Source of the DNA: an archaeon
Lineage (GTDB): Archaea; Hydrothermarchaeota; Hydrothermarchaeia; JALTZZ01; JALUTC01
Direction of reading: 5' to 3'
Assembly (NCBI GenBank): GCA_027051265.1
Contig: JALTZH010000035.1
Location: 1-5,850, forward strand
Length of the DNA stretch: 5,850 bases
Positions within the stretch are counted from its first letter, which is position 1. Each line of letters starts with the position of its first letter. A program made the translations under genes and the position numbers. A model generated the notes under the pieces. That model did not search any database. It was not told the origin of the DNA and saw only the letters and a list, made by a program, of their open reading frames with translations. Shown here piece after piece: positions 2,091 through 5,850 of the stretch.

Positions 2091-3487
2091 TGTGTGGAAT
2101 TGTTGGTATTTATTCAAAAAATAAAAACGTTTCATACTTAATATATTATGCGTTGTTAACACTTCAACATCGTGGACAGGAATCATGTGGCATCGTAACA
2201 AGAACAGAAAATGGTTTTAAAATTTATAAAGGAATGGGGTTGGTTACAAGTGTATTCCATAAGGGGATATTAAACAGTTTAGATGGTTACGTAGGAATAG
2301 GACATACGAGATATTCAACGACAGGTAAAAGTTCTATCGAGAATTCACAACCAATAATGTTAAACTTTTCATTAGGTAAACTAGCTATAGTTCATAATGG
2401 AAATATTGCCAACGCTTATCTTCTCAGAAAAGAATTAGAAGAAAAAGGACAAGTATTTTTAACAACAACAGATACTGAAATAATAGCTCATTTAATAATA
2501 AAAAATTATATTGAAGAAAAAGATATTGTTGAAGCTATAAAAAGAGCATCAAATATCCTAATAGGATCATATTCGTTAATTATTTTAACCGATGAATTCC
2601 TGATTGGTGTTCGAGATCCGTATGGTATAAGACCTTTATGTCTTGGAATGGATAACGATACAATAATATTAGCTTCAGAAAATGTTGTATTCGATGTTTT
2701 AGATAAAAACTTCATTAGAGATATAAGACCTGGAGAAATCTTCGTAATTGATAAGGATGGAAATTATTACAGTTATTACTTGAATAAAAAGAGGAACGCG
2801 TTTTGTGCCTTTGAATACATATACTTTGCTAGAGCTGATGCAATGATAAATGGCATCTCCGTTTATAAAGTTAGAGAAAAACTTGGAGAAATAATGGCAA
2901 GAAAAGATACGGTTATTGCTGATTTCGTATCACCTGTACCAGATTCTGCAATACCTTATGCAATAGGTTATTCGAATTACAGGGGAATTCCTTATAGAGA
3001 AAGTCTTATAAGGAATAGATATGTTGGAAGAACATTTATAATGCCTAAACATTCTGAAAGAAAAATTGCTGTAAGATTGAAATTGAATCCTATAGCACAT
3101 GAAATAAAGGATAAAAGGATAATACTTGTCGATGATAGTATCGTTCGTGGAACAACTTCTAGAAGAATAATAAACATGTTAAAAAGGGCAGGTGCGAAAG
3201 AAGTACATTATAGAGTATGTTCTCCAATGATTATATCTCCATGTTTACTAGGAATAGATATGCCAACAAAAGAAGAATTGATTGCAAGTAATAAAACCGT
3301 TGAAGAAATTAGAAGAGAAATAAACGCTGACTCTTTGATGTATTTAACCGTAGATGAACTGGTTGAAGGAATTGGATTAAGTAAAGAGGAATTATGTTTA
3401 GGTTGCTTTACGGGAAAATATCCAATAGATGAACTTGAAAGTATCATTAAACTCATACCAAAAGATATATTTCTATACAACAAATAG
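2090..3487 (+). CDS. purF: Amidophosphoribosyltransferase PurF
   Basis: PurF catalyses the first committed step of purine synthesis, turning PRPP and glutamine into phosphoribosylamine in the cytoplasm. The 465-residue protein begins MCGIVGIY, so Cys2 is the N-terminal nucleophile of the class II glutaminase domain and no propeptide is needed. LQHRGQES (25-32), GHTRYSTTG (71-79), VHNGNIAN (101-108) and RDPYGIRPL (175-183) complete that domain. The PRPP loop VDDSIVRGTT is at 347-356. Cys239, Cys385, Cys436 and Cys439 (LCLGC) align with the four [4Fe-4S] ligands known from the Bacillus subtilis enzyme, so a structural iron-sulfur cluster is expected. A tail of about 19 residues after GKYPID is longer than I would expect and is the part overlapping the next gene. 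The start shares a base with the L37e stop. The overlapping junctions place it in the operon. Confidence 0.97.
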   Translation: MCGIVGIYSKNKNVSYLIYYALLTLQHRGQESCGIVTRTENGFKIYKGMGLVTSVFHKGILNSLDGYVGIGHTRYSTTGKSSIENSQPIMLNFSLGKLAIVHNGNIANAYLLRKELEEKGQVFLTTTDTEIIAHLIIKNYIEEKDIVEAIKRASNILIGSYSLIILTDEFLIGVRDPYGIRPLCLGMDNDTIILASENVVFDVLDKNFIRDIRPGEIFVIDKDGNYYSYYLNKKRNAFCAFEYIYFARADAMINGISVYKVREKLGEIMARKDTVIADFVSPVPDSAIPYAIGYSNYRGIPYRESLIRNRYVGRTFIMPKHSERKIAVRLKLNPIAHEIKDKRIILVDDSIVRGTTSRRIINMLKRAGAKEVHYRVCSPMIISPCLLGIDMPTKEELIASNKTVEEIRREINADSLMYLTVDELVEGIGLSKEELCLGCFTGKYPIDELESIIKLIPKDIFLYNK

Positions 3488-4022
3488 TTTTAAACTTAAA
3501 GTTGCAAAACATATTTTTAAAGATTTAGCTTTAGATATAGTAATGGTTAAAAAGAAACTAAAAGAATTACAAACCATGAATATTCTGGAGAATGTTAAAT
3601 TTAAACTGAAACAGGTTGATAAATTACCAGCAATCGTTGAAGATTCGGGACTCTTCATAAAGAATCTTAGAGGATTTCCAGGGACGATTACTAAATACGT
3701 TCTTAAAACAATAGGATTTAGTGGTATTCAAATGTTGCTAAAAGATGATACGTTTTCATATTTTATATCAGTAGTCGGTTATAAAGATTTAGAACTTGAA
3801 AAATATTTCATAGGAAAAGTTACTGGTATGTTAAAGAAAAATCAGAAAAGTATTGATGAAGCCTTTATTCCTACAGGAAGTAATAAGAGTTTTGCAGAAA
3901 TGAATTTAGAAGAATTTGTAAAATATTCTGATATAGGAAGATCTCTTACAAAACTTAAACGCTTCTTAGTTCAAATTTATAAGTTACAATGTTGCGATGA
4001 GGAAAGATTTGTAGAGCAATGA
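3429..4022 (+). CDS. Divergent HAM1/RdgB-type non-canonical purine NTP pyrophosphatase with replaced C-terminus
   Basis: HAM1/RdgB enzymes hydrolyse dITP, XTP and ITP to monophosphates, keeping deaminated purines out of nucleic acids. The core KIYFYTTNSFKLK (12-24, family T-x-N-x2-K), AIVEDSGLFIKNLRGFPG (68-85, catalytic EDSGL), AFIPTGSNKSFAEM (145-158) and KLKRFL (175-180) identify the family. It is divergent: the G-F/W-G-Y/F-D segment before FIP is missing and the usual S-H-R nucleotide-contacting motif reads YSDIGR (166-171), so activity or specificity may differ. The ATG at 3429 overlaps purF by 59 nt without a Shine-Dalgarno sequence; TTG at 3435 is an alternative, and the first strand starts only at residue 12. 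The last 12 residues (LQCCDEERFVEQ) are not family-like. A second copy of the gene end at 5123-5266 instead closes with a short RIYKNG tail. The native stop was therefore probably lost here by rearrangement. Confidence 0.85.
   Translation: MNLKVSLNSYQKIYFYTTNSFKLKVAKHIFKDLALDIVMVKKKLKELQTMNILENVKFKLKQVDKLPAIVEDSGLFIKNLRGFPGTITKYVLKTIGFSGIQMLLKDDTFSYFISVVGYKDLELEKYFIGKVTGMLKKNQKSIDEAFIPTGSNKSFAEMNLEEFVKYSDIGRSLTKLKRFLVQIYKLQCCDEERFVEQ
3861..3982 (+). repeat. Direct repeat copy 1 (HAM1 3' end)
   Basis: This 122-bp stretch matches 5135-5256 at a constant offset of 1274 bp with only two differences (3863 C versus G; 3973 A versus G), and 3864-3972 is an exact 109-bp match. It encodes HAM1 residues 145 to 185. 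The two copies bracket the MNT/HEPN module. Immediately after 3982 the copies part. Confidence 0.95.
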
Positions 4023-4040
4023 GGAGCGAAACGTTTATAA
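4011..4040 (+). promoter_or_regulatory. Promoter-like element conserved with 5364-5392
   Basis: GCGAAACG followed by TTTATAA (4034-4040) looks like an archaeal BRE plus TATA box and would start RNA about 25 nt later, near 4060. The 29 bases 4011-4039 match 5364-5392 at 25 positions, including the whole AAACGTTTATA core. In this copy it lies over and just after the stop of the HAM1 gene. The transcript would run through 4060-4390 towards the MNT/HEPN pair; whether it does so is inference. Confidence 0.5.
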
Positions 4041-4114: not shown

Positions 4115-4336
4115 GTGTCGCAGAAATATATTCTTTCGAATTGTAACGGAGTAAAACCTTCCAATTTGTTTACGATTTCATATCTTAGTTCCCATCAAAA
4201 GCAATATGATCGAAAGTATGAAAGTTCGTTGGATATAAGCAAAGAAGATACGTCATGCATCCGAAACGAAGAGAAGATATACTCTTTGATAAAAATTATA
4301 GGAACTATAGCATATGTTACTTTTGATGGGAACTAA
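4115..4336 (+). CDS. Doubtful small ORF of 73 codons
   Basis: A GTG-started frame (MSQKYILSNCNGVKPSNLF at the N-terminus) fills the gap between the HAM1 gene and the MNT gene. I recognise no domain, signal peptide or membrane segment. It has no Shine-Dalgarno sequence, and its second half coincides with a segment bounded by 18-bp inverted repeats; its stop codon lies inside the right arm. It is serine- and asparagine-rich, unlike the neighbouring genes. It is more likely rearranged non-coding DNA than a gene. A small promoter-proximal peptide of the toxin-antitoxin locus cannot be excluded. Confidence 0.2.
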   Translation: MSQKYILSNCNGVKPSNLFTISYLSSHQKQYDRKYESSLDISKEDTSCIRNEEKIYSLIKIIGTIAYVTFDGN

Positions 4337-4337
4337 G
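4184..4337. repeat. 154-bp segment bounded by perfect 18-bp inverted repeats
   Basis: CTTAGTTCCCATCAAAAG at 4184-4201 recurs exactly as its reverse complement at 4320-4337, and the similarity continues inward in gapped form (CAATATG against TAACATATG). The arms enclose 118 bp. This is the shape of a miniature inverted-repeat element, but I see no clear target-site duplication (flanks TTTCATAT and GTAAAATT). As RNA it could form an 18-bp stem with a long loop just upstream of the MNT promoter. Confidence 0.75.
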
Positions 4338-4348
4338 GTAAAATTAAA

Positions 4349-4392: not shown

Positions 4393-4716
4393 ATGAAAGA
4401 AAAATTAAATCTGATTAAGGAGATCATACTAAACATTGCAAAAAAACATAACATAGAGATAGATAGGATCATTCTATTTGGCTCAAGGGCGAGAGGAGAT
4501 TACAGAGAAGATTCCGATTGGGACATATTAATAGTTACGAAGGAAAAGATTGGTTGGAAGAAGAGAAAGATATTTTTGGGGGATATCTTAAAAATTTTTG
4601 CAAAGATTAAGATTAGAGTGGAAATATTAATAGTAGATCTGGAAACTCTAAATGAATATGGAAAATGGTGGGGCTTTGTGCATTACCATGCCGTAAATGA
4701 AGGAGTAAAAATATGA
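4393..4716 (+). CDS. MNT-domain minimal nucleotidyltransferase (antitoxin partner)
   Basis: The protein is a 107-residue single-domain member of the polymerase-beta-type nucleotidyltransferase superfamily. The signature ILFGSRARGDYREDSDWD (27-44) carries GSRARG and the SDWD metal-binding pair Asp42/Asp44; the third acid is probably Glu77 in RVEILIV (75-81), where many family members have Asp. MNT proteins paired with HEPN proteins act as antitoxins, in studied cases by adding AMP to a residue of the HEPN toxin. Its stop overlaps the HEPN start as ATGA, which is the standard arrangement. The gene has its own candidate TATA box and no Shine-Dalgarno sequence. Its richer use of G and of Trp/Gly codons than the purF-side operon, and its place between duplicated HAM1 ends, suggest acquisition. 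Domain identity is firm; the biochemical role is by family analogy. Confidence 0.9.
   Translation: MKEKLNLIKEIILNIAKKHNIEIDRIILFGSRARGDYREDSDWDILIVTKEKIGWKKRKIFLGDILKIFAKIKIRVEILIVDLETLNEYGKWWGFVHYHAVNEGVKI
4701..4705 (+). promoter_or_regulatory. Ribosome binding site of the HEPN gene
   Basis: AGGAG sits 7 nt before the HEPN ATG at 4713, inside the last codons of the MNT gene. It decides the start and, with the ATGA overlap, indicates coupled synthesis of the two partners. Confidence 0.65.
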
Positions 4717-5093
4717 GGAAAGATGTCGAAGAATTTCTTAAATCTGCAGAAGAAGATTTATCAGCCGCAAAAGAATTATTGGAAACTAAAAAGTATAGAA
4801 TTACCGTTTTTCATTGCCATCAAGCCGTTGAAAAATGTTTAAAAGCTTACTTATTAGAGAAATCTGGTAAATATCTATTTACTCATTCGATATATGAGCT
4901 GATAGAATTGGCTACGGAGTTGGATGCGGATTTCGAATATCTGTTTGATATAAATGCTCAGGCATTGGAGGAATACTATACTGGAGCAAGATATCCGCCA
5001 TTACTAAAAGTCTCGGAAGAAGAGGCTAAAGAAGCTGTTGAGATAGCTGAGAAAGCCAGAGATTTTATTTTGAGAAAGATTAAATTGAAATAA
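4713..5093 (+). CDS. HEPN-domain protein (toxin partner of the MNT/HEPN pair)
   Basis: This 126-residue, all-helical protein matches the classic HEPN domain (Pfam PF05168 type). It has an N-terminal helix with EEFLKSAEEDLSAAKELLE, the core YRITVFHCHQAVEKCLKAYL (28-47), THSIYELIELATEL (57-70), and YYTGARYPPL (88-97) with the conserved A-R-Y-P. HEPN proteins in such pairs are ribonuclease-like toxins; RITVFH (Arg29 to His34) has Rx4H spacing, but I cannot tell whether it is the catalytic Rx4-6H motif. It overlaps the MNT gene by 4 nt with AGGAG upstream, so the pair is one translational unit. The length is normal and the gene looks intact. The pair resembles type VII toxin-antitoxin systems; a role in mobile-element maintenance or phage defence is inference. 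The gene is followed 30 bp later by the start of the broken HAM1 copy. Confidence 0.9.
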   Translation: MRKDVEEFLKSAEEDLSAAKELLETKKYRITVFHCHQAVEKCLKAYLLEKSGKYLFTHSIYELIELATELDADFEYLFDINAQALEEYYTGARYPPLLKVSEEEAKEAVEIAEKARDFILRKIKLK

Positions 5094-5122: not shown

Positions 5123-5266
5123 GTAGATGATATTGCGTTTATTCCTACAGGAAGTAATAAGAGTTTTGCAGAAATGAATTTAGAAGAATTTGTAAAATAT
5201 TCTGATATAGGAAGATCTCTTACAAAACTTAAACGCTTCTTAGTTCGAATTTATAAAAATGGATAA
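5123..5266 (+). pseudogene. HAM1/RdgB C-terminal fragment (second copy)
   Basis: An open stretch of 47 codons, starting after TAG at 5120-5122 and ending at TAA 5264-5266, repeats the last part of the HAM1 protein: AFIPTGSNKSFAEM, then YSDIGRS and KLKRFLVRIYKNG. The first 40 codons match the upstream gene almost perfectly at DNA level. Nothing equivalent to the N-terminal two thirds, including EDSGL, is present, so it cannot encode an enzyme; an internal ATG could give about 30 residues. It ends soon after KRFL, as HAM1 proteins normally do, so it may preserve the original 3' end of the upstream gene. Before the shared part it reads VDDIAFIP against SIDEAFIP upstream, a codon longer after GAT-GA, so the boundary may be slightly further left than base identity shows. 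Confidence 0.85.
5135..5256 (+). repeat. Direct repeat copy 2 (HAM1 3' end)
   Basis: This is the partner of 3861-3982, with two mismatches over 122 bp (5137 G and 5247 G). After 5256 this copy carries about 53 bp (5257-5309) that are absent from copy 1, including the stop codon and a palindrome. Weaker similarity to the sequence after copy 1 then resumes at 5308. Confidence 0.95.
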
Positions 5267-5307: not shown

Positions 5308-5392
5308 AAGTTACAGTATTGCTAAGGAAGTTCCGTTCTTCAGGATGAAAATGAATTGGAGAGGTAGAGCAACGATGAACAAAACGTTTATA
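5308..5392 (+). repeat. Second copy of the post-HAM1 module with promoter-like core
   Basis: AAGTTACAGTATTGC and AGGAAG (5308-5330) match 3981-4006 with a few changes and small gaps, and 5364-5392 matches 4011-4039 at 25 of 29 bases, ending in AAACGTTTATA. Between them this copy has about 28 more bases than copy 1, including a weak hairpin, CGTTC-TTCA-GGATG. The TATA-like core would start RNA near 5415, facing only the IS605-like scar. Confidence 0.6.
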
Positions 5393-5616: not shown

Positions 5617-5817
5617 TTATTGATTCTTTTCTTTTTTCTCAGAAAGGATAGCTCTTAACCAGTTTTTTATAACTTTTCTACTGTTTAAAAATGAAACAAT
5701 ATTCCAGTTATGTTTTTTAGATCGCATAAATAGTTTTTCATAACTTACCTTATAGTTTTTTGTTGAAAGAACTGTTTTAATTAAGAGATTGTTATTAGAT
5801 TTTGTATTAATTAAAAT
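5617..5817 (-). CDS. Unrecognised protein, 5' end cut off at the contig edge
   Basis: The minus strand is open from the contig edge to TAA at 5617-5619, giving about 66 genomic residues. The protein is basic and rich in Lys and Asn, with KLFMRSKKHNWNIVSFLN and KNWLRAILSEKKEKNQ at the C-terminus. I recognise no family, motif, signal peptide or membrane segment. The only upstream start, GTG at 5830-5832, lies inside adapter sequence, so the first five or so residues of a GTG-started call (MYKKQ) are artificial. The real protein either begins beyond the contig or at the internal ATG of FMRSKK. Base composition is as AT-rich as the rest of the chromosome. It converges on the IS605-like scar. It may be the tail of a real gene, but chance openness in AT-rich DNA cannot be ruled out. 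Confidence 0.45.
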   Translation of the reverse strand: MLINTKSNNNLLIKTVLSTKNYKVSYEKLFMRSKKHNWNIVSFLNSRKVIKNWLRAILSEKKEKNQ

Positions 5818-5850
5818 TTGTTTCTTATACACATCTGACGCTGCCGACGA
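5818..5850. other. Illumina Nextera (Tn5) adapter sequence at the contig end
   Basis: The last 33 bases match the reverse complement of the Nextera read-1 transposase adapter at 31 positions. The differences are T for C at 5818 and 5822. The 28 bases 5823-5850 match exactly: the end of the Tn5 mosaic end (TCTTATACACATCT) followed by GACGCTGCCGACGA, stopping at the last adapter base. This is library artefact, not genome. Confidence 0.95.

Follow-up and report, generated by a model that had tools for sequence, protein, structure and literature searches.

The window (the whole stretch of DNA analysed, 5850 bases) is the entire contig C35 of its source genome (257 contigs, 1.46 Mb), and it is practically certain that this contig ends in synthetic adapter sequence, whatever the route by which it arrived there. 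The terminal 28 to 33 bases have no biology behind them and are an ordinary, well-understood assembly artefact. A synthetic end had already been proposed in a first-pass annotation of the bare sequence, and its identification as untrimmed Nextera adapter is now supported by the sequence match, its place at the contig's end, the occurrence of the same 28-mer at the sequence ends of unrelated taxa, and the loss of homology at the adapter edge.

Positions 5818–5850 read TTGTTTCTTATACACATCTGACGCTGCCGACGA and are identical in 31 of 33 bases to CTGTCTCTTATACACATCTGACGCTGCCGACGA, the Nextera read-1 adapter in reverse complement; this adapter consists of a 14-nt tail (TCGTCGGCAGCGTC) and the 19-nt Tn5 mosaic end (AGATGTGTATAAGAGACAG). 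The identity is exact over 5823–5850 on the minus strand (28 of 28 bases: 14 in the tail and 14 of the 19 in the mosaic end), and the two differences, both C-to-T, are located at 5818 and 5822, leaving the mosaic end 17/19 identical with both changes adjoining the insert. The five positions 5818–5822 (minus strand; the plus strand has TTGTT where the adapter has CTGTC) form an ambiguous junction: they are either genomic or the last bases of the mosaic end carrying two changes. Both the 28 exact bases and the imperfect fit of the preceding five had been reported in the first-pass annotation, and this description is accurate; it can be refined by placing the genome/adapter boundary between 5817/5818 and about 5822/5823. 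The runner-up 33-mer in the window matches the adapter in 18 of 33 positions, none of 200 dinucleotide shuffles of the window contains a match with up to 3 mismatches, and from its base composition the window would be expected to contain the exact 28-mer ~4e-15 times. Over the last 33 bases the G+C content is 45.5%, up from 29.5%, and the match finishes at the final base (5850) with the tail directed outwards.

A search for the exact 28-mer in two collections, one of bacterial and archaeal genomes and one of viral contigs, returned at least 246 copies in 240 retrieved loci. Among the matches listed, 236 of the 246 copies are situated at most 70 bases from a sequence end with the tail outwards, intact CTGTC precedes 240 (TTGTT in contig C35), and 9 stop at exactly the same base as this contig. 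Many of the listed copies are followed by recurring index-like octamers, and P5-like sequence comes after the 28-mer in 3 loci (L020, L068, and L161). The hosts among these matches include bacteria, archaea, and viruses, ranging from Streptomyces to Prevotella to Bathyarchaeota. Such a distribution is the signature of untrimmed adapter and not of an element. Changes in the mosaic end occur in 6 of the 246 listed copies, as well as in the genomes of two relatives. In 4 unrelated isolate assemblies (L012, L035, L055, and L067) a common single change, CTGGC for CTGTC, is observed, which is perhaps a sign of trimming escape or of systematic read error.

Regarding the gene at the contig end, the minus-strand open frame reads SSAASDVYKKQILINTKSNNN... 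and begins with SSAASDVYKKQ, while the intact adapter translated in the same frame gives SSAASDVYKRQ. The genomic part of the frame (5617–5820, minus strand) encodes ~67 residues, the C-terminal portion of a truncated small protein, and the SSAASDVYK preceding it comes from the adapter. Its nearest homologue is a 117-aa protein of the same genus (G001, contig C127; 54% identity, E-value 6.9e-20), and a longer homologue is present in the same order (G002). Pfam similarity of the G001 protein to DUF4258/PBECR1 is weak and below the curated cut-offs. In the ungapped alignment to G001 the similarity is unbroken up to the lysine at 5821–5823, and none is detected beyond it (BLOSUM62 values are zero or negative), although the G001 homologue has ~54 more N-terminal residues than the fragment. 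Since homology stops at the adapter edge and the homologue continues for these further residues, the real gene runs off the contig: C35 ends inside it, and the front of the gene is replaced by adapter. The warning in the first-pass annotation that a gene call from the GTG at 5830–5832 (minus strand) would have an invented N-terminus is thus confirmed, as this codon lies within the adapter and ~54 residues of the homologue are missing.

The continuation of 5800–5822 was not found elsewhere in the same genome. A candidate for the missing front is present at another contig end (C54:101-205, within locus L259 1-213), where residues 1–35 of the same family are encoded with 74% identity to G001. After these 35 codons the sequence diverges into ~100 unrelated bases and leaves no clean join to C35. 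The candidate may thus be a paralogue, or else the front of this gene with its end disturbed.

The route that we consider probable as a whole starts from what is seen directly: adapter sequence is present, it occupies the contig end, and a real gene is truncated at that point. A short fragment of the archaeal genome in a Nextera/Tn5 library would have been read through the insert into the far-end adapter, and such read-through is described for short NexteraXT inserts (PMC3906532). The adapter bases would then have been missed by trimming, probably via the two mosaic-end differences from the trimming sequence. Finally, the assembler would have carried the contig 33 bases into the adapter and halted where the constant read-1 part ends, before the index. 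The library index lies beyond 5850, and an assembler would halt there if libraries with different indices had been pooled or if depth was low. Two observations speak against this route, namely the single adapter in a genome of 257 contigs and a junction that is not textbook (TTGTT, against CTGTC in 240 of the 246 listed copies). Neither of them, however, favours a biological origin. Error correction of reads toward genomic sequence would also yield the pattern at 5818–5822.

An alternative that we regard as rather unlikely is a PCR chimera, in which a template switch would have fused adapter, from a point inside the mosaic end, to a genomic strand that ends in ...TTGTT or slightly beyond. Positions 5818–5822 would then be genomic and the five mosaic-end bases that come first would be missing, with the contig end still synthetic. 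The homologue has a lysine opposite the lysine codon at 5821–5823, and TTGTT suits an AT-rich genome, both of which fit a chimera. However, 3 of the 5 bases still agree with the mosaic end in register (three or more would do so by chance with a probability of 0.06), and a complete mosaic end is the rule in the public copies listed (240 of 246). Far less credible, to the point of being negligible, is a genomic origin, either as a natural end of Tn5/IS50 or as some other sequence that resembles the adapter by chance. The 19-bp Tn5 mosaic end is indeed derived from the ends of IS50, which is what such an origin would build on. The 14-nt tail GACGCTGCCGACGA, however, is synthetic primer sequence, matched exactly and reaching the contig's last base; moreover, the genome has no other copy, a search for the mosaic end with at most 1 mismatch finds none elsewhere in it, and no transposase is found among the 10 window open reading frames scanned.

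As for further adapters in the same genome, searches of all 257 contigs for the mosaic end (up to 1 mismatch), the read-1 junction (up to 2), and the read-2 junction (up to 3) recover only the end of C35. When two mismatches are allowed, CTGTCTCTTATACAC gives two further matches (C50 and C107), which is no more than a backwards control and attributable to chance. A set of 198 genomes (the source and its relatives) was also searched with a 25-nt adapter piece and up to 1 mismatch, a search that would find intact adapters as well. By this definition the adapter is present in 3 of the 198 genomes, all three with one or two mismatches in the mosaic end. In the other two (contigs L282 and L283) it is likewise situated at contig ends, with one and two mosaic-end mismatches (CTGTCTCTTATGCACATCT and CTGTCTGTTATACCCATCT). 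The copy on C35 has two mismatches to the usual 19-nt trimming sequence. This number would get past a trimmer that tolerates one and may plausibly be the reason for its survival. Since trimming takes out exact copies, the adapters surviving in trimmed assemblies could show an enrichment of mosaic-end mismatches, a generalisation that we offer tentatively, the cases being few (n = 3).

The rest of the window carries, among other genes, those for ribosomal protein L37e and an LSM protein, which point to an archaeal source; tRNA and Rfam searches of the window gave no match. The 3′ end of a Ham1/ITPase-like gene (3429–4022) is repeated 1274 bases downstream (3854–3982 and 5128–5256, 96% identity), and a second, smaller repeat pair is located at 4011–4039 and 5364–5392 (86%). 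In G001, too, purF and ham1 are adjacent, and the homologue there shows similarity up to residue 180 of 197 and no further. The last 17 residues of the Ham1/ITPase-like protein may accordingly be foreign; one possibility is an insertion into the 3′ end of its gene, with a copy of this end remaining. The interval that separates the repeat copies holds a gene pair with a 4-base overlap (4393–5093), encoding an MNT-like nucleotidyltransferase and a HEPN protein, and similar DNA is found on contigs C53, C239, and C88. Another segment of ~160 bases (4181–4340) has 27-nt inverted ends (89% complementary) and similar copies at C34:14339-14497 and C48:15023-15158; it resembles a small mobile element without coding capacity.

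The relevance of the adapter is confined to data hygiene. Trimming should leave the contig ending at about 5817, or at 5822 at the latest. Any protein predicted to start at the GTG at 5830–5832 (minus strand) is a 5′-truncated fragment and should be marked as such, and nucleotide matches to the contig end are spurious. A screen demanding the exact 19-nt mosaic end overlooks C35, whereas the adapter is caught by a screen that looks for the 14-nt tail or tolerates two mismatches.

In comparison with the spurious N-terminus SSAASDVYKRQ that arises from translated Nextera adapter, the frame on C35 starts with SSAASDVYK-Q in the same frame and has K instead of R at position 10, a result of the change at 5822. 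Our literature search, conducted at search level, identified no paper on the SSAASDVYKRQ peptide as an artefact; the string DVYKRQ does occur in four papers. Compared with untrimmed Nextera (Tn5) adapters on public contigs, C35 likewise carries the 28-mer with the tail toward the end. It differs from them by two C-to-T changes in the five insert-side bases of the mosaic end, and it stops where the constant part ends, without index bases, as do 9 of the 246 copies listed.
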